Assembly: GCF_030253575.1 (NCBI RefSeq)
Contig: NC_080568.1
Location: 1,195,501 to 1,259,500, forward strand
Source: Rhododendron vialii
Lineage: Eukaryota; Streptophyta; Magnoliopsida; Ericales; Ericaceae
Direction of reading: 5' to 3'
DNA: 64,000 bases
Under the pieces are notes generated by a model. The model had not been told where the DNA came from. It saw only the letters and a list, made by a program, of their open reading frames with translations, and did no database searches. The position numbers and the translations under genes are program-made. Positions 3,201 through 43,090 of the stretch are shown here, one piece after another. Positions within the stretch are counted from its first letter, which is position 1, and every line of letters begins with the position of its first letter.

Positions 3201-5723
3201 GAGCTCCCAGGGCAAGAAGCGATGCTCTCCTGTGGTGATCATGTTAAAAACGAAAAAAAAAGAGAGTGACTATGAAACAAAATCGGTGTCTACAGTATTC
3301 ACAGTCCACGGAGCAATACTGCGGTTAACCATGGGGATAGAGTGGCAAGAGTGCATTGCTTCTTAGTGTCGTAGTTGACATAAGGCGTTGAGTCAATCAC
3401 CGTAGTAAGAAAATGCGACCTTTTTGGCCTAGTTTAGTTGGTTGATGTTATAGTATTCAGCGATTTAAACGATGCGCCAGATTTCAGCTCAAGTGTAGCA
3501 AAGACAGATAATCACGTTTATGTGCAAAGTTTTCTTGAACTGATTGTAAGGTTTGTAAAGGTAATGGAAGTGTAATTCTTGTATGAAATGTAACACTATG
3601 ACAGTATCTCTTCTTTTATTGCATAACATGACCAACTTCTTAAATTCAACTTCATTCTTTTCGTTGCAGGTCTTGTGATGGCTTTAATTGGTTCTCTTCT
3701 CAGTGTACTAGTGGTAAGCATGAACCTTTGATTCTGTTTTAAATTGCATGTTTTAACTTATGTTGACTGTATACTTTGTGTGTAGACACATTGTCTTATT
3801 GATCTTAAATATAGGAGAGAATCTAGAATGGATTATCCCTAAATTTGTCAAGTAATCTGTGGAATATCTTGTGTAGGCCAAAAACATAATGATCATTTGC
3901 GTTTTACTTTGTTTGGTTTTGTGAATTGATTGATTCTGTTTGCCTCCCTAAATTTCCAGAAGAGGTCTCTTCGAGTATTGTAATGGCATAATCCTGGAAT
4001 ACTCGGATTGACTACTAATGTTGAGCTGCTTTGGTGGCGTTGTTTACTCTTGGATATTCAATAGAAACATCAGAGTAGTGTCATTGTTCTGGGGAGTTTT
4101 CTTTGGAAAATAGAGTTCAAAATCCTTAAGTCTTACCGTTTTGGTTAAAACTAAATTCAATTGAACTCAACAACCTAGTCTCAATTAGTTGGGGTCAGAA
4201 AACCTGCATACAGAAATTGGTTCATACCTATAGCCTTCGTTAAGGCTAATACAGTCATGAAACAATAAAAGTTTCTCATGATGTCCAGAAATCTTCTTAA
4301 TCCTTTGAATGAATTAGCTAGAGCCTAGAGTATTAAGGACGTCACAAGAAACTAAAAGAAGAGATACCTCGGAAACCTTGAAGATCTTTTAAATTCATAA
4401 AAGTCTCTCATGAATTCATCTGCTTTCCAATCCATAAGCTTTCCTGTTACCTATCAGATGCTAGGTCGGTTTAAAAAAGAAACTTAGTTGCTTACGCATT
4501 GTGCATTGTAGTTATGCAAAAGGAAAACATTAGGGATGGTCTGGATGGATAAAGGGCAACCAGATGGTGTCCTAATGGCCTTGATAACAGTTTTACTTCA
4601 CTTGAGAATCTTGAGATAATTCTTGTGACACTTTGTTTAATAGACAGCAGGGTTGTCAGAAATTTGAACCTGTTTAAATAAGAAAAAAAGTTGTAGTTAA
4701 AGGAGAGGAAAAAAACAGTCTTGAAGACAAATAATTTAACCTTGGTACTATGTTAACTTCATGTTTTCGGTGCATAATGCATTTGTTGTTTGGATAACAT
4801 CGCAGTTGTCAAATGGAAAATCTTAATGATGAACTGAGTTCTAATAGGAGAATGTGAAAGCCAAGACAAAAACAAAGTGATGTATTTAGACCTTCTAAAT
4901 ATTGTACATCATCGCCAACTTCTCTTGATGTCAGTGTTGTCTTTGGGATTTTGTTTTTTTTTTTTTTTTCCGATCAGCGTCTTTGGTTCATTTTTTTTTT
5001 CTAGTTTGTTTAGGTATATACATGTTTCTGTATGTGTTACTTATGCTGATCAAAGGTGCATTTTGGTGTGATTCAGGCAGTAATAATGCCAGCTTTATGT
5101 TTTATTCGAATTGTAAAGAAGCCGACAACAACTCAGGTAATGTACCTCAATGCACAATTCCAAATTTCCAATCCCTGCAAACTAAAACTCTCTCCGTCAA
5201 TGCAAGCAAACAAAATGAAAACTGACTGGTATTTGTACCGGAGAACTGCCACCTATCAGTGAAGATCATGTTGAAGGATTGAAAATTGGCTAATCAAAAC
5301 GGTTTTATTGTCTGAAAGCGTTTCTTGGATATAAAACATAATCTCTCCCAACGTTTTTTACACAAATTTCTCAATTTAAGAACTTGAAGGTTCAAAATTT
5401 TTTGCCGTGTTTTGTGATTTCCTCTTCCTCGAACAAGAAAAAGGCTCCCATAAAGAGAAATAAACACACAACAAGAACAGGAACAAGAACAAGGACAAGG
5501 ACAGGAACAAGAAAACGTTGCCGGTTGTTGTGTGTTATGACACATTTTTATTGTTCTCATGTTGCTTCGTTTGTGGTATTCATGTCCCTCTACCTTTGCT
5601 CTTTACTCGTTTCTGTTTTCACAAATGCAGGTTGTTCTGAGTACCGGAACAATTGTGTTGGGGGTCGTTAGTGCAACCCTGGGAACATATTCTTCGCTTT
5701 CGGAAATCGTGAAGAAGTACTAA
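204..5723 (+). CDS. AVT1: Vacuolar amino-acid transporter, AVT1-like (3' part)
   Basis: C-terminal 378 residues of an AAAP-superfamily amino-acid/proton transporter expected in the vacuolar membrane. Exons: 204-418, 948-971, 1055-1235, 1513-1732, 1810-1945, 2650-2669, 2779-2924, 3670-3713, 5077-5136, 5631-5723; the summed length closes in frame to a TAA stop. The family signature [16 protein letters not shown] sits at the start of the first visible exon. It is followed by repeated hydrophobic membrane segments, the GIGFN loop, the [12 protein letters not shown] motif and the terminal block ending [10 protein letters not shown]. The first visible exon enters with a split codon, so the N-terminus (cytosolic acidic tail and first helix) lies left of the window. 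The symbol gives the family; which AVT1 paralogue it is cannot be told. All junctions are GT-AG except the sixth intron (2670-2778). No stop or frameshift breaks it. Confidence 0.93.
2160..2530. repeat. Intronic dispersed repeat with GTGTCC/GACACATGTC motifs
   Basis: Inside the AVT1 intron (1946-2649), phrases such as 'cctagtgtgtccc' and 'gtgacctagc' occur twice (near 2190-2225 and 2330-2365). A GACACATGTC-like stretch lies near 2433. A related GTATC/ACACATGTCC phrase occurs near 37600 and 39650. It looks like an old interspersed repeat; the class is unknown. Confidence 0.35.
2670..2778 (+). other. Probable U12-type (minor spliceosome) intron in AVT1-like gene
   Basis: No GT donor fits between the codons for TNPLTK-like residues and the following YALLMNP block. 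The exon is instead followed directly by ATATCCTTTT, the U12 donor consensus. TTCCTTGAC, a near-perfect U12 branch-site match (consensus TTCCTTRAC), lies at 2761-2769. With the intron at 2670-2778 the frame closes and gives ...[10 protein letters not shown]. That makes it AT-AA, with about 10 nt from branch adenosine to acceptor. A terminal AC two bases upstream (2776) would break the frame. The donor and branch matches are direct observations; minor-spliceosome use is inferred. Confidence 0.7.
5468..5515 (+). repeat. Hexanucleotide minisatellite in last AVT1 intron
   Basis: About eight imperfect units of CAAGAA/CAGGAA/CAAGGA run through the last intron (5137-5630), about 115 bp upstream of the terminal exon. 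No coding role is seen. Confidence 0.7.
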
Positions 5724-9905: not shown

Positions 9906-10286
9906 CCGAAATGCTACTGGTACATATAATCTGTGCACAGATTTTGTGGTGGGGCCCACCATGGGTCCCACACAAATGATCCAAACCGTTTATTAAATGT
10001 AAAATATTTTTTCAAGGGTTCATATAAAAAATCAGCTCAATCTAATACCTATAGATGCTTGATATAATCATCTAATTTTTCATTATCCAGAAATCTGAAT
10101 GAAAATTTAGATAATTGGATCGAATACTTATAGGTATTAGATTGAGCTGATTTTTTACGGAGACTCTTGAAAAAATATTTTACATTTAATGAACGGCTTG
10201 AATCATTTGTGTGGAATCCGTGGTGGGTCCCACCACAAAATCTGTGCACAATCTATGCACAGATTATCTGTACCAGTAGCATGGTT
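9906..10286. mobile_element. Hairpin MITE with 10-bp target duplication, upstream of SPT5
   Basis: A 381-bp element whose two halves are inverted copies of each other (arms about 170 bp). The ends share ATGCTACTGGTACA and TAATCTGTGCA. It is flanked on both sides by the identical 10-mer ACCGTAATTT (9896-9905 and 10287-10296). Long inverted repeat, no coding capacity and a 10-bp target duplication point to a Mutator-type MITE. It ends about 195 bp before the SPT5 start codon, so it lies in the promoter or 5' UTR. Confidence 0.88.
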
Positions 10287-33907: not shown

Positions 33908-34083
33908 TGCACAGCACCGTGCTGCGTATCTTCGAGCCGTTGGATTGTGCATCCGACGGCTCAGATCTCATTTTGACAACCAATGATCAAGAGCCATTCA
34001 TTACCGAAATGAGATCTGAGCCGTCGGATGCACAATCCAACGGCTCGAAGGTGTGCAGCACGGTGCTGCGCATACCACTGCAC
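33908..34083. mobile_element. Foldback MITE with ~70-bp arms
   Basis: The left arm (33908-33978) and right arm (34009-34083) are near-perfect reverse complements, sharing CAGCACCGTGCTGC, TTCGAGCCGTTGGATTGTGC and ATCCGACGGCTCAGATCTCA, around a ~30-bp loop. A target duplication was not clear. Confidence 0.85.
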
Positions 34084-35690: not shown

Positions 35691-36530
35691 AAGCTAATCT
35701 TACTTACAAGGCCTTGCTGATGAACTTAATGAATAAAATTGTGGTCATCTAGCTGAAAGGGGGACTGATTGTGGGGGGGAAATGACGGCCAATGACGTGT
35801 TTTGATAATTAATGCCCGCCAAGGACATTTTGTTCATTAACAAATGCTTTTAGCATGTCCTTAAAAGACATTAATTATCAAAACATGTCATGGGCCGTCA
35901 TTTTCCCAATTGTGGGTGATGAAGACGGTGCCCAAGTTGCAAAGTTCATAGCCTGCAAAAGGTTTTGTAACTTTTTTTTTGGCAACCCCCTTGGGCATGA
36001 CCATAGGGGCTCTCTACCCGCTAGTGGAATGTCCGGTTCAAGCCATAGCTACTGTCCGTGAAGACAGATTGTCACTACGGCACCATCTGGGTACAAGATG
36101 ACTTAGACTCCACCCCCATTATCGGTGAGACTCAAACCCGAGTCTCTGCTAGGGGGTGTGGTGAGCTGAGCCATCCAGGCTATCACCTTGGATGGTGTTT
36201 TGTAACTGTTCATAAGACTGTATTTGTGGTGAAGGTATTTGGAAGTATTTTTCTGCTCGACGGGTCGTTCTATTGAGCACATCCTTGGAGATTTCATTTT
36301 CCATGTTAGGAATAATATGGATACGTTATGGTTTTGGTGCTTTAATGGGTTGATGCTACCCTCAACTATTTGCTCGGCGGATTTCTGCAGATTACAAAAT
36401 GGCATCGCAAACTTTCACGTAATTGTTTCTGACTGTCGTGTATCCAGCCAAGATTTAAATAATTATGTGTTCTAGTCTAAAAGGGCAAACGTCCATTGCC
36501 ATAACTATGATTTCCAAGATCTTTTTTTTT
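35650..36530 (+). repeat. Family R2 repeat, copy 3, split by a SINE
   Basis: Matches copies 1 and 2 ('acaaggccttgctgatgaac', 'cagattacaaaatggcatcg', 'aaaagggcaaacgtcc'). The SINE at 35973-36196 interrupts it at 'gcaaaaggttttgtaactg', which is uninterrupted in the other copies. Confidence 0.7.
35973..36196 (-). mobile_element. SINE (minus orientation), 11-bp target duplication
   Basis: Read on the minus strand: 'gatagcctggatggctcagc' (A-box-like), 'cgggtttgagtctc' (B-box-like), 'cattccactagcgggtagag' and an A tail. The target duplication GTTTTGTAACT lies at 35962-35972 and 36197-36207. The body matches the SINE at 39954-40224. Confidence 0.88.
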
Positions 36531-37140: not shown

Positions 37141-37440
37141 CATTAGTAGCCCTAAGAAAAAGACAGATGACAAATTCCATCAAATTCCAAAAGTATCAGA
37201 AGCGAACAAGCTACATTGGTCAGAGTACAAAACATCAATTTACGTCACGGAGCATCAAATGCAATAAATGGAAACAAAATTCCTTCTATAACACCCCTTC
37301 ATAGAGTATGACCCATGGAACCTTCCCCTTCTCCTAAGCTGAATAACTTCATCTTCCATTTGGTGGTTTCCGGGAACTCTTCTTCGATCCACTCTCCTCG
37401 CTCCTCCCGGAGACCTGCACACAAGGCATAGGGCTGTGGA
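37141..37440 (-). pseudogene. R2 tail fused to a possible terminal exon remnant
   Basis: On the minus strand, a GTGTGCAG acceptor (about 37415) is followed by the frame VSGRSEESGSKKSSRKPPNG, Arg, stop. Then come the R2-tail phrases 'cagcttaggagaaggggaag', 'gaaggggtgttatagaa' and 'ttgcatttgatgctc'. This suggests R2 repeats are the 3' end of a spliced host or transposon transcript. The protein family was not identified. Confidence 0.45.
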
Positions 37441-37552
37441 CAGCCTTACACCCCTCTGCCGATCAAGTAAGAACGTGAAGGAAAAGGGGAAAGTACTGTA
37501 ACTAGGAGAAACGGCGTACCTCTTCTAGGGTTTATCCTCTAGTACTATAGGC

Positions 37553-38582
37553 AGGATGTGGGACACAGGTACGACTTGATACAGACATGTGGATACAAAG
37601 AGTATCAGACACATGTCCTAAAAGTATCGATCTCCGATCGTGTCAATATGAACACATCTCGCTTATAATAACATGCATGCATACATCCCTTGCAATTAGA
37701 CAAATAAGGCAGGCACGCTTGCTCCCCTAGTAAAGCGTGCGTGGCACTCGCCCATGACGTCACCCATAACCACTACGGTCATGCTTACTCCAAACAATAT
37801 TTGAAATCTATAATACAAACGAAGTGTTTGGAAGAGATATGTCATTCTTCAGACATTCAATCACATGCTTATACCCTAGCTGTAGAAGCACTGAGGGCAC
37901 AGGACGAGCATCACCGTCTAGCGGGACTAGGTGTTTCCCACCCCGCACCAACACAGGATGTCACATGTTAGGAGGAGGTCCATCACAGCTACAAAGAGCT
38001 GGAGGCAGCAACCAACAGGGGAACATGACGTCAATGTTGTAGAAGATGTGGACGAGATCCAAGCAGTGGAGGGGCAGGTAAAGGAGAGGTTAGCGGAGAA
38101 ATCACAGGTAGAGGAGGAGTCACAGGTAGAGAGGATTATAGATATGGAGGATGGGGGCCAATTAGGTGAGAGTGGGGCCTATACGTTATACGGAGGGGGC
38201 ACCCAGCGAGCAGAAGGGGTAACTCAGGTTAGGAACGCCAATCAACCCATTTCATGGCCCTCCGATTCCATTGTGGCCCAAAGTTGGGTGATTTCACTAA
38301 TGGATGCTTTTGATTGGGGATCTAAACATCTATCCCCTTTGGAATTCCCTTCATTATTACCCGTCCAAGTGTTTGACAATTTAGTACTTTCTGCGTCTAA
38401 AATCCTCCATAAGGAGCCCAATTGTGTTACCGTTGACGGGTTGGGTGCCCATTCAAGCATTGTGGTGGTTGGGGACATTCACGGGCAGTTGCATGACTTG
38501 CTTTTTCTGCTACAGAATGCGGGTTTTCCAACAGATAACAATGTTTTTGTTTTTAATAGAGATTACGTGGATAGGGGGGCTT
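37553..38582 (+). pseudogene. PP7-type phosphatase fragment, left arm of a palindrome
   Basis: An open frame to 38620 reads PISWPSDSIVAQSWVISLMD, then FDWGSKHLSPLEFPSLLPVQ, then VVVGDIHGQLHDLLFLLQNA and FVFNRDYVDRGAWG. These are the N-terminal and first catalytic motifs of plant PP7/PP7-like Ser/Thr phosphatases (PPP family). The second metal-site motif GDYVDRG has become RDYVDRG, and the frame ends soon after at the palindrome centre, so most of the catalytic domain is missing. Non-coding flank from 37553 is also part of the arm. It is not a working enzyme. Confidence 0.75.
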
Positions 38583-38618
38583 GGGGTTTTGGGACAATCT
38601 GCATAAAACAAAAACTCT

Positions 38619-39710
38619 AAGCCCCCTATCCACGTAACCTCCATTAAAAACAAAAATCATGTTATCCGCCGGAAAACCCACATTCTGTATCAGGCAAATC
38701 AATTCATACAACTGCCCGTGAACGTCCACAACCACTACAACGCTCGAATTGGCACCCAAGCTGTCAACGGTAACACAATTGGCTCTTTATGGAGGATTTA
38801 AGACGCCGAAAATACCATATTATCAAACACGTGGACAAGTAACAATAAAGGAACAAGTAACAATAAAGGAAACTTCGAAAGGGCTAAATGTCTAAATCCT
38901 CAATCAAAAGTGTCCATCGGTGAAGTCACACAACTTTGGGTCACAAGGAAATCAGAGGGTCGTGAGATGGGTTGACCGGCATTCCCAACCCGAGTTACCC
39001 ATTCTGCTCCCTGAGTGCCCCCTCCGTTTAACGTATAGGCCTCATTACCACCTAATTGGCCCCCATCCTCCATCTCTATAATCCTCTCCACTCCTCATCT
39101 ACCTCTGATTCCTCAGCCAACCCCTCCTCTACTTGCCCCTTCATTGCCAAGACCTCGTTCACATCTTCTACAACATTGATGTCATGTTTCCCTCTTCTAC
39201 CTATGTTGTTGTCTCCTGCTCTTCGTAGCTGTGATTGACCTCCTCCTGACATGTGAGGTCCTGCGCTGGTAGGGGTGGGAAACACCTAGTCTCGCCAGAC
39301 GATGATGCTCGTCATGTGCCCTCAGCACTTCTACAACTAGGGTATAAGGATGTAACTGAACATCTAAAGAACAACATCTCTCTTCCAAACACTTCATCTA
39401 TATTATAAGTTTGAACTATTGGTTGGAGTGAACACAATGCCATAACCGAAGTGGTTATGAGTGACGTCATCGGCGTGTGCCACACACGCCTTACTAGGGG
39501 AGCTAGTATGTCTGCCTCGCACGCCTTACTAGGGGAGCTAGTACGCTTGTCTTGTCTAATTACAAGGGATGTAAAGCTGAGAAGCACGAAAACTTCAAAG
39601 AAGGTGACGTATTCATATTGACATGACCGGAGATTGATACTTTTAGGACATAGGTTTGATACTCTTCGTATCCAAATGTCTGTATCAAGTCGTACCCGTG
39701 TCCTATATCC
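38619..39710 (-). pseudogene. PP7-type phosphatase fragment, right arm of a palindrome
   Basis: An inverted copy of 37553-38582 separated by a 36-nt spacer. On the minus strand it reads SSVVVVVDVHGQLYELICL and FVFNGGYVDRG, then ...RIIEMEDGGQLGGNEAYTLN and PTSAGPHMSGGG... in several frames. GDIHG has become VDVHG and the metal-binding Asp of GDYVDRG has become Gly, different lesions from the left arm. An extra ~45-bp duplication (gccttactaggggagctagt) lies near 39485-39545. Confidence 0.75.
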
Positions 39711-39953
39711 ATATCCATGCTTCTTAGAAACCATGCTTTGAGGGAATTAAGCCAACTCTCTGGTTGCAATCATTATATCTACTGTCACACACTAATTCAT
39801 TGTATGTGAACATAAATTCAATTTATGCTTCAGCTTATTGTGCTTTGTTCATAGTTTGTTGTTTCCATGTGTTTTCCATACTTAATACTGCTGATAGGAA
39901 CCTTAAATTGGCAAAATGACATGAAATACAAGGAATTAAGAATGTAAAGAACT

Positions 39954-40224
39954 ATCACCGATGGTAGTAGCCTCGTTGGTTGGGCCTCCCCCTTTCCGTA
40001 GGCAGGACTCGGTTTTGAGTCTTGCAAGTGGCATGGGATTGGGGACTTTGTGCTTCCACCAACGTGTATCTAGGTAGTGCCGTGGTGACAGCATGTTCTC
40101 ACGGATAATAACTATGGCTCAACCAGACATTCCACTGGCGGGTAGGGAGCCTCTATGGTCACACCCAATGGGAGTTGTTACGCTGATTGCCCCCTCCCAC
40201 CCTTTTACCCAATCAAAAAAAAAA
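39954..40224 (+). mobile_element. SINE with perfect 16-bp target duplication
   Basis: AAGAATGTAAAGAACT occurs at 39938-39953 and 40225-40240. The element carries 'tagcctcgttggttgggcc' (A-box-like), 'ggttttgagtcttg' (B-box-like), the body phrase 'gacattccactggcgggtag', and an A12 tail. It is the same family as 35973-36196. Confidence 0.93.
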
Positions 40225-40299
40225 AAGAATGTAAAGAACTGAATTAGTAATTGAAATTTGAATGTGACCCACCAAAGAAGAGATTAGGTGATTTCATCC

Positions 40300-40400
40300 T
40301 CCTCCTTCAGGTGTGGGCATGGGAGAGGTTACCATATATTTCTCCACGTCGTTTGGGAAAGTTGCAGATACGGTATTGTCGTACCACATGAGTCGCAACC
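40300..40400 (+). pseudogene. Plant mobile domain (PMD) remnant
   Basis: After a CTTCAG acceptor-like site the frame reads QVWAWERLPYISPRRLGKLQ and then IRYCRTT-stop. The (L)LQ.WAWERLP motif is a hallmark of the plant mobile domain found in MAIL1-like proteins and in transposons. Only about 35 residues are preserved. Confidence 0.5.
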
Positions 40401-43090
40401 AGCACCACTGAAAATATGTCATGCCAACTGCAAAAATTGATGTTCATTATGCGAAATCATACAAGGCTCGTGCTTGGTACCTTAACCAACAAATAAATGG
40501 ATATGTGTGTGTGTAAATAACTCCATAATGACGTACTTCTTAAACTAAGACAAGTTTAATATTTTATTTATTGTTCATACCATGCAATGAGAGGATCCGG
40601 TTGCACTGGAAGAAGGTGACATCGCAGTGGAGCCATAAACGGAAACCTTTCCCACACCCAAACCTGGAAGAGGATGAGGCAACCCCCCTATCTCGTGTGT
40701 GGTCGGAACAGTAGCGCGGCGCAAGACCCTCTACAACCAAGCCAGTGCTCCACTCCCTTAGCCATACTGTCCTGCCACGTCTAATAGTGGCAAAAACAAA
40801 ACATTAGGGGGAGATATTGGAACGACTTGTCTAAAAAATACTCCCTTCCATAAGATGCAAAATATGAGCCCTGTCATGTATCCTTTGCGTGACAAGTGTA
40901 AATTTCTACCTGTTACATAAGATAACTTCTTAAATACACGCTAGGAAACAAGTCTAATTATGAAAACAAAATACTTTGGTTCTCTATCTTAATGCAATCT
41001 AAAATACCACAAGTACTTTAATTACCTGATACTCCAAGTACATTCCTGTGACTTTGCCCCCATGTAACCTATTGCACTCCTTAGGCCAGCTATAGTCTGT
41101 TCTCCTTGTAATTGGCATACCGTTAACTCTCAGCCCCAATTGGATGCTTACATCCTATACGACATGTGGAACGTGTGCATCTCAGGTCGCCAATGCTCTA
41201 CCAATGCTGTTATGAGATGCCAATCGGGTTGTATAAAAGGGACCTACAAAGACTTATCTAAAAGCTGCCTCGCAGCGTTGATAAGTTAGAGCCATTGAGT
41301 CTTCCGGCCCTAGAATTTCAATAACACAAATAAATAATCAAATAAAAATACATTTATCAATAACCATGATTATCTAAAGCAATGCATACATTTAAATCTC
41401 ACACTACTGTTGATCAGTGTGACGCCTGTCGTGTCAAAACAATCATTGCCTGCATAACATTCAAGTCAATCAATTTTAGAACAATAATAGCTATTCAATG
41501 CTAGGTTTACATGCCAAATTGCCACATAAACCCTCAAAACAATTTGTCATCCCTATATTTGAAGCAAATATTGGAGATGCTCTTAGACTCTATCTAGGAA
41601 CAGTCATGTTAAAAAGTTGGTCACGAGTCCATGTGTCCCAAACCTTGTCTTTAAGATCAGCCCTTGGATCGATGCGACATTTCTTCCAAAACTGTGTTTA
41701 TGAATTTGTTGGCACCAGGGAGGAAACTGCGTGCCGATTCGACGTGGTTGAAGAGATGCAACTTAGGACACACGAACAACAGCCAATTTTTGAAGTATGC
41801 CATATGGGGAAGTTACCATAATGGGATACATATCTTGTATTCTTTTCTGAATCCTATGTACTGCATCGAGATACACATCGGCTACTGCTTATTGTAAGAT
41901 ACGTAAACAAGAGTACATACACGTTTCAAAGAATACTTATTCCCAATCTAACATGCAAGATGTACTGCATATGTTAAAAAATGAACTTCGACGAAAATAT
42001 TTTTAAGTAATCAACCACAAAACATGATCCAGCAACAAAATTTATGGTGTCATGTATGGCGTAATGAAAGGTATCACAATCAAAGAAATTAAGCCTAAGA
42101 AATATTTAGAGATACGTATCTATTTTACCACTAAACGTACCGAATCCTAAGACACATATTGTATGCGTATCATAAGATTTCCTTTACTTAAGATACGCAT
42201 CGGATTGCAGATTGTATCGAATCACACGATGCTTGTCTTGATTTGTAAAATTTAGGCAACACATGATATAGGAGCAAGACAAATTTTGAAGTATCTGCGT
42301 TTTATAGGTTATTCAATACTTATGGTTGGGATAGAGTGTAACGACATGATATCACCGCAAGCTTTCCATAGTAAGGCATTAAAACGAACTAGTGTGGGCA
42401 GCTAGGCAAGTAAATTGAAATGTAGAGGAGAACAGAATTAATCAAAGACAATTTATACCATTTTCTCAAATCAGCAGCCTAGGCGACCAATGAATCGGCG
42501 CATGTGACATTGATACATACGGGTCATCGCGATGCATAACACCATCATATGTCTCACCCTGAACAATGTGATATCCCCGATTATCCCACATGGCGATTGA
42601 CGCTCCGTGGGTCTGCGCCCAATCATTCGCTCCCCCTCTCAAATCAACACCGTGGGGTGCATCAAATGACCAAGAAGAGGATGGAAGACAGTGGCGTCGA
42701 GGTGCTCTCTGCAGCTCTTGTTTGGAAATTGAGGAAAGTAGGAAAAAGTGAGAGAAAGGAAAATGAGGGGAAATGGGATGATAATAAGAGGAAAATTGTA
42801 CTATTCATAATTCTAGAACCAATTCTAAATCCTTCTATTTTCTCTACTCTTTTCCTCCCAACCAAACAATGGGGGAGATTTTTTTTTAATCTTCTCTTCC
42901 TTTCCTTTCTCATATTTTCCGGAAGTTCCAAACAAATCGTAAACAATAACCGTTCCAAAATCATCCTAATAGAATATCGGTCCCCTACCAATAATTCTAA
43001 ACAAATTCGAATATTGATACATATTTCACGAATATTAATACAATTTCACATATAGCAAGATATTTTTTTCAAATATCAATGCATATTTTA
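40401..43090. other. Long unassigned region; no supported gene
   Basis: Frames at 41498-41821 (107 codons) and 42549-43055 (168 codons) have no recognisable domains or splice context. Scattered PMD/transposon debris is possible. Confidence 0.4.

Follow-up and report, generated by a model that had tools for sequence, protein, structure and literature searches.

The near-palindrome described here lies in a relic of a PMD–PP7 gene copy, in which a transposon-derived plant mobile domain (PMD) was fused to a PP7 phosphatase, and the exon that carries the PP7 start was probably (at odds that we put at about two in three) duplicated there in inverted orientation by break repair. The inverted exon duplication in this scrambled relic is real and old and belongs to a known kind; what stands out most is that such duplications recur within one gene family. 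By the window we mean the whole stretch of Rhododendron vialii DNA that was analysed, 64,000 nucleotides long (C12:1195501–1259500), and the genome searched comprised 532.6 Mb in 13 contigs. The PMD–PP7 parentage, the extent of the relic to ~42.7 kb, and the other palindromes on C12 go beyond the preliminary description of this DNA.

The arms and their closest relative

The two inverted arms occupy positions 37554–38590 (left arm, plus strand) and 38611–39710 (right arm, minus strand) of the window. Their alignment contains 874 identical columns out of 1023 (85.4%), with 149 substitutions (102 transitions and 47 transversions) and 25 gap events amounting to 91 nt. The K2P distance between the whole arms is 0.165, and the longest exact run from arm to arm is 25 nt. 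We randomised the whole window 20 times with a Markov-1 model and found no inverted repeat with arms of at least 60 bp and a spacer of at most 500 (BLAST E ≤ 1e-6). The near-palindrome of ~2.1 kb with 2 opposite arms, as first reported, is real; its spacer, previously given as 36 nt, is 20 nt (38591–38610) by the arm alignment and 17 nt by the inverted-repeat search. Smaller self-palindromes are present in the window at 9911–10282 (arms of ~190 bp) and 33908–34072 (arms of ~80 bp).

The left arm consists of (i) an insertion; (ii) segment B of a repeated element, X (both described below); (iii) a probable PMD C-terminal tail and a linker, identified by eye; and (iv) the PP7 start, which extends to GDYVDRGAWG, here RDYVDRGAWG. 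The right arm is an inverted copy with stops and frameshifts. Pfam Metallophos matches were found in both arms (E 1.3e-7 in the left and 1.7e-4 in the right), which identifies both as PP7-type fragments, in agreement with the preliminary description. Both contain the start of the Metallophos domain with its motifs, whose names we take to be GDIHG and GDYVDRG in a PP7-type exon, and motif residues are changed in each arm. The motif readings given earlier were right, that is to say, RDYVDRG in the left arm, and VDVHG and GGYVDRG in the right.

Of the two arms described as inactivated, the right one has frameshifts, and a single matched stretch of it (query residues 2–156) contains 6 stops. The description of the left arm needs a correction, because a frame of 229 codons (37931–38620, plus strand), containing the Metallophos match of E 1.3e-7, is open and crosses the break into the spacer and the right arm. 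In simulation, 44% of frames of 138 codons with 21 changes and 24% of frames of 229 codons with 35 changes stayed free of stops by chance, and the open frame of the left arm thus shows neither function nor death. When the changes in the PP7 part were polarised with the relative L008 (described below) as the outgroup, with 2 ambiguous sites and the gapped columns dropped, the left arm received 21 of them and the right arm 48 (p = 0.0016). At codon positions 1, 2, and 3, these numbered 10, 3, and 8 in the left arm and 17, 14, and 17 in the right, the latter without codon bias. Neutral decay of both arms starting at one moment would not be expected to give such a difference; constraint may have persisted in the left arm, or this arm may have been converted, and the right arm has no sign of conservation. 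Over 138 codons, the left arm and L008 differ with a dS of 0.35 and a dN/dS of 0.28, and these values indicate that both copies were constrained during at least part of their separate history. Because this dS exceeds the divergence between the whole arms (0.165) and between their PP7 parts (0.204), the palindrome probably arose later than the gene copy.

Alignment of the arms to the PP7 genes of the genome, which had been proposed, gave C10:9443503–9443920 as the best other match (87% for the left arm and 78% for the right). This match lies in locus L008 (C10:9438500–9448400; gene at L008 2594–8768), where the sequence at L008 5004–5421 is 86.6% identical to left-arm positions 38178–38595. In the L008 gene, PMD exons (Pfam E 1e-62 and 5e-20) are followed by one open frame, which starts with sequence common to the neighbouring PMD copies (L008 4568–4869, 91%) and ends in the PP7 start, and then by a second PP7 exon. 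The exons of both domains stand in their expected sequence on a single strand of L008, which reads as a PMD–PP7 fusion gene; the window copy has its pieces shuffled and spread over both strands. The second PP7 exon of L008 contains RGYHE, and its paralogs L009 and L010 have RGNHE, presumably a catalytic motif. On account of this replacement, the predicted L008 product may not be an active phosphatase. Three related PMD copies lie close together at C10:9358000–9458300, and a PP7 part was detected in only one; genome searches with the arms and with the PP7 protein found no PP7 exon in the 2 PMD copies beside L008.

The flanks and the formation of the palindrome

The left flank (37361–37552, plus strand), which is outside the palindrome, is segment A of the moderately repeated element X, with matches on C1 (two places), C6, C7, and C13. 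In every one of the 5 other X copies found, segment A continues into segment B with 7–33 bp between them. Segment B lies at 37707–37784 in the window; in the two C1 copies, it begins only at the position equivalent to 37751. An insertion of ~154 bp (37553–37706) separates A from B in the window and occurs in none of those 5 copies. Both arms hold this insertion and segment B, and in the left arm the insertion is flanked by a short repeat recognised by eye (TATAGGCA / ATAAGGCA). Because X runs continuously from A to B in all 5 copies, the left arm still stands where it belongs next to the left flank.

The right flank begins with PP7-gene intron 1 (39683–40270, plus strand), which aligns to L008 6157–6452 once a SINE-like insertion is set apart and shares 28 bp with the right arm; beyond that arm, ~0.3 kb from intron 1 of the relative stands on the plus strand. 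The ~0.74 kb at L008 5421–6157 (the exon end and the 5' part of the intron) have no counterpart at the junction between right arm and intron. A genome search with 39650–39960 revealed the C10 fusion gene (C10:9444656, 79%, 260 query bases) and the PP7 gene at C12:1748919 (75% over 96 query bases), the match to the latter overlapping a piece of ~51 bp also present at three other places; the other matches were pieces of 42–57 nt, namely the left arm itself and two more short pieces. The SINE-like insertion inside the intron (39954–40224) is A-rich at one end and bears terminal 16-bp repeats, and a related SINE-like copy is present in inverted orientation at ~35983–36194, to the left of the palindrome.

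Beyond the intron are (i) a PMD exon 1 piece (40279–40388, plus strand; L008 3331–3442), joined out of order to intron 1, of which 87 bp are 89–91% identical in three C10 copies; (ii) older, weak PMD exon 1 fragments (40577–41243, minus strand; tblastn E 4e-5 to 2e-15); and (iii) PMD exon 3 with the following intron, of the C10 type (41583–42686, minus strand), 85.6% identical to locus L026 and 86.3% to locus L032 over 1.1 kb and 85% to L008 over 654 columns. The relic of the PMD–PP7 gene extends to ~42.7 kb, and the PMD pieces in both orientations to the right of the palindrome show that more than one rearrangement took place.

The right arm is the intruder in this arrangement, since the left arm fits the left flank and intron 1 fits the exon of the left arm; the native exon is thus probably the left arm, of which the right arm would be an inverted copy. 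At the outer edge of the palindrome, positions 37541–37581 resemble, when inverted, a short stretch of intron 1 in the C10 PMD–PP7 gene (L008 6157–6195). The local score of 37 compares with a maximum of 32 in 300 shuffles and with 18 in direct orientation, and this inverted homology of ~40 bp sits where the right arm meets intron 1. The boundary homology, the arm ends at nearly the same codon, and the short central filler are in keeping with break repair in which one end copied the other side backwards. The layout and the boundary homology fit fold-back or template-switch repair better than a transposon. In the proposed mechanism, a break near the exon end would leave a right-hand DNA end, which would anneal to the inverted homology and copy the left side back to the break; alternatively, a 3' end would fold back and copy itself. 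The copied end would then be joined, and both arms would decay afterwards. A formation model for human inverted copy-number variants has reportedly been published. In yeast, fold-back and template switching at breaks are documented, with much shorter insertions (PMC11724301).

Two features of the junctions speak against this mechanism. The central junction is not that of a clean fold-back, because the 20-nt spacer, past its first few bases, is unlike the relative's exon when compared by eye with L008 5421–5450. In addition, each arm has at its outer end a version of the motif GGATrTrGGACACrGGTACGACTTGATAC, which belongs in part to a repeat that is also present on C7 and C9, and the boundary homology therefore need not be causal. 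A loose pattern of this motif had one match in the sequences scanned, in L012, and it missed the palindrome itself, so the pattern is a poor one.

An alternative origin, in which two convergent gene copies were joined by deletion of the DNA between them, would be in keeping with the unequal change between the arms and with the C10-type PMD exon 3 at 41583–42686, whose minus-strand orientation is that of the right arm. However, the 154-bp insertion is common to both arms, their breakpoints fall at almost the same codon, and the DNA outside the right arm is plus-strand intron 1 rather than the upstream part of a minus-strand gene, which together make this origin improbable. Even less probable is a Foldback or Pack-MULE-like transposon whose terminal inverted repeats of ~1 kb carry a captured PP7 exon. 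The similar, partly recurring motif at the outer ends of both arms and the 154-bp insertion with its short flanking repeat at the left end agree with such an element, but (i) among the matches listed in the genome search, the whole arm matched its own locus only, with no second copy, as a multicopy element of this kind would have; (ii) the left flank is continuous with arm-internal X in 5 of 5 copies found; and (iii) the right flank is the gene's own intron. Furthermore, inspection by eye of the sequence on either side of the complete palindrome revealed no target-site duplication. The suggestion of transposon capture is thus not upheld for the palindrome in its entirety. Finally, palindromes are a familiar long-read artefact, but an artefact of assembly, such as an inverted chimeric long read, is extremely improbable here because the arms differ mostly by substitutions (149 against 25 gap events, with transitions twice as frequent as transversions) and the outer flanks are unlike each other, each matching other genomic loci.

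Palindromes elsewhere in the family and hairpin potential

A search of the genome with the PP7 protein revealed five PP7 loci, of which three are in single orientation and open and two are inverted pairs, the window being one of the latter. The three open exon-1 loci (C10:9443520, C10:36850940, and C12:1748417) bear out the expectation of PP7 genes elsewhere in the genome; six further matches with E of about 0.002 are presumably other phosphatases. Leaving the window aside, one of four PP7-exon loci is palindromic. This palindrome (C12:1883101–1884477) has arms of 692 and 673 bp with a K2P of 0.138 and a 12-nt centre, and on its own strand its parts follow each other as in the window (5' flank, exon 1, inverted exon 1, exon 2), which supports the break-repair model. 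Its centre is located ~75 nt upstream of that of the window palindrome in the same exon, and it is thus probably a separate event. Beside it, PP7 exon 2 forms a smaller inverted pair (142 aligned columns, 78%), so that L023 3791–4099 and 4202–5578 (C12:1882690–1884477) are adjoining palindromes of PP7 exon 2 and exon 1. A 57-bp direct repeat (L023 4126–4182 / 5568–5620) brackets the exon 1 palindrome and is left unexplained by the break-repair model.

A third palindrome (C12:1892537–1894920; L024 3737–6120) is located ~8 kb further on. Its arms of 1.1–1.2 kb have a K2P of 0.207, with 75% identity over the whole self-match and 82% over the aligned columns, and contain PMD pieces (E 3.9e-16 and 5.3e-11). 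The closest relatives of L024 among the best 40 of 147 candidates, C5:5987399 and C12:1912357, are in single orientation, which makes one palindrome in three. The three PMD/PP7 palindromes lie within 0.66 Mb of C12, with arm divergences of 0.14–0.21 substitutions per site.

As a background, we examined 20 loci (188,706 bases), 5 of them random (50,000 bases) and 15 chosen for other reasons. The only palindrome with arms longer than 300 bp in these loci was that of L024, a PMD locus, and the next largest arms were 207 bp; in L008, L009, and L010, which contain open PP7 exons, no palindrome had arms over 126 bp. The window itself was chosen for its palindrome. These counts suggest that the PMD/PP7 family is prone to palindromes, with a 20-locus background too small to prove enrichment. 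PMD matches in the genome number at least 136 with the Pfam model and at least 150 with the L024 piece, many of them without stops in the match. Among the best 150 of 1291 candidates found with the L024 piece, no PMD inverted pair within 3 kb was seen by eye, an inspection that missed the second L024 arm too. Two PMD matches on C13 (16883731 and 16889387) lie on opposite strands, 5.2 kb apart.

RNA of the central 1001 nt (38100–39100) is predicted to fold as one long hairpin at −643 kcal/mol (a value for the native sequence alone), and the hairpin potential of the earlier proposal is thus borne out. Neither an Rfam family at the gathering thresholds nor a tRNA was found in the window. The arms and the C10 exon have exact runs in common of 29 and 24 nt (left arm) and 23 nt (right arm). 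Exact 21-mers in the C10 exon number 13 of 1027 for the left arm and 3 of 1080 for the right; with up to 3 mismatches to that exon (L008 4701–5450), they number 300 of 1027 and 148 of 1080. The corresponding near-matching 21-mers number 100 (left) and 41 (right) for the L009 exon and 42 and 3 for the L010 exon. Since the shared exact runs are 23–29 nt long, siRNAs from a putative hairpin could act on the C10 gene, in the way proposed for Mu killer.

A working hairpin-siRNA locus, in which read-through transcription would yield a double-stranded RNA of ~1 kb and siRNAs against the C10 PMD–PP7 gene and its relatives, would be compatible with an origin by break repair. The predicted fold, the exact and near-matching 21-mers, and the two further PMD/PP7 palindromes on C12 argue for it, as do the 175 PHAS loci at PMD genes reported for tea (PMC10673657). 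However, identity between the arms is only 85%, 25 gap events separate them, no exact run that they share exceeds 25 nt, their identity to the candidate target is modest (87% left and 78% right), and the right-arm changes have no codon bias. We consider such a locus unlikely; most likely, the locus has no dedicated function today, and its best reading from these sequence comparisons is a decaying repair scar with putative hairpin potential. A wider proposal, that PMD and PMD–PP7 relics repeatedly made palindromes that were kept as siRNA hairpins holding down the PMD/PP7 family, is more doubtful still.

The C12 palindromes share a genome with open-frame relatives. It is known that siRNA and microRNA genes can start from gene pieces duplicated in inverted orientation, but such duplications tend to be noticed only after a phenotype. 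In Arabidopsis, the module of MAIN, MAIL1, and PP7L silences transposons. If small RNAs arise from the palindromes, they would be an example of a plant building silencing against, or inside, a family that is itself active in transposon silencing; if none arise, the palindromes are scars of inverted repair that differ in age, and as a set they help explain how palindromes form in plant genes. Were the wider siRNA proposal true, the palindromes would be a primary source, so far unrecognised, of PMD phasiRNAs such as those reported for tea or, alternatively, an anti-silencing device aimed at a module of the MAIN/MAIL1/PP7L type.

Comparison with known systems

In maize, Mu killer is a partial inverted duplication comprising ~1.3 kb of mudrA, whose transcript would fold back, and a model without a hairpin is also offered in the same paper (PMC3440606). 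The window palindrome is likewise a partial inverted duplication able to fold back. By contrast, Mu killer derives from MuDR and silences MuDR, and the window arms derive from a PMD–PP7 gene and are 15% diverged. Rice miR820, which resides in CACTA elements, targets OsDRM2, a host silencing gene (PMC3459959). The parallel holds only if the PP7 hairpins act on a putative PMD/PP7 silencing module, and miR820 is a microRNA with a tested target, whereas the window locus is a candidate hairpin.

In tea, as here, PMD family genes are concerned, there as sources of small RNAs; tea is another species, and palindromic sources for the PMD loci are not described in the portions of that paper used here (PMC10673657). 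Among the matches listed in our literature search, this paper was the only one that ties the plant mobile domain to PHAS loci, phasiRNA, or inverted repeats, and no paper was found that mentions phosphatase 7 long form in connection with inverted sequence.

Fusions of PMD and PP7 were described by Nicolau and colleagues in a study of 30 eudicots, namely MAIL3 of the Brassicaceae and VvMAIL2.2 of grapevine (PMC7156037). Like these, the C10 relative has a PMD and a PP7-type phosphatase domain in one gene, a likeness of domain pairing rather than of a tree, and the window copy differs in being broken. In the Y region of Populus euphratica, 24-nt siRNAs and target methylation were measured for inverted partial duplicates of ARR17 (PMC9636151), whereas siRNAs from the window locus are putative; the arrangement there, inverted exon fragments with an intact gene copy elsewhere, is the one found here.
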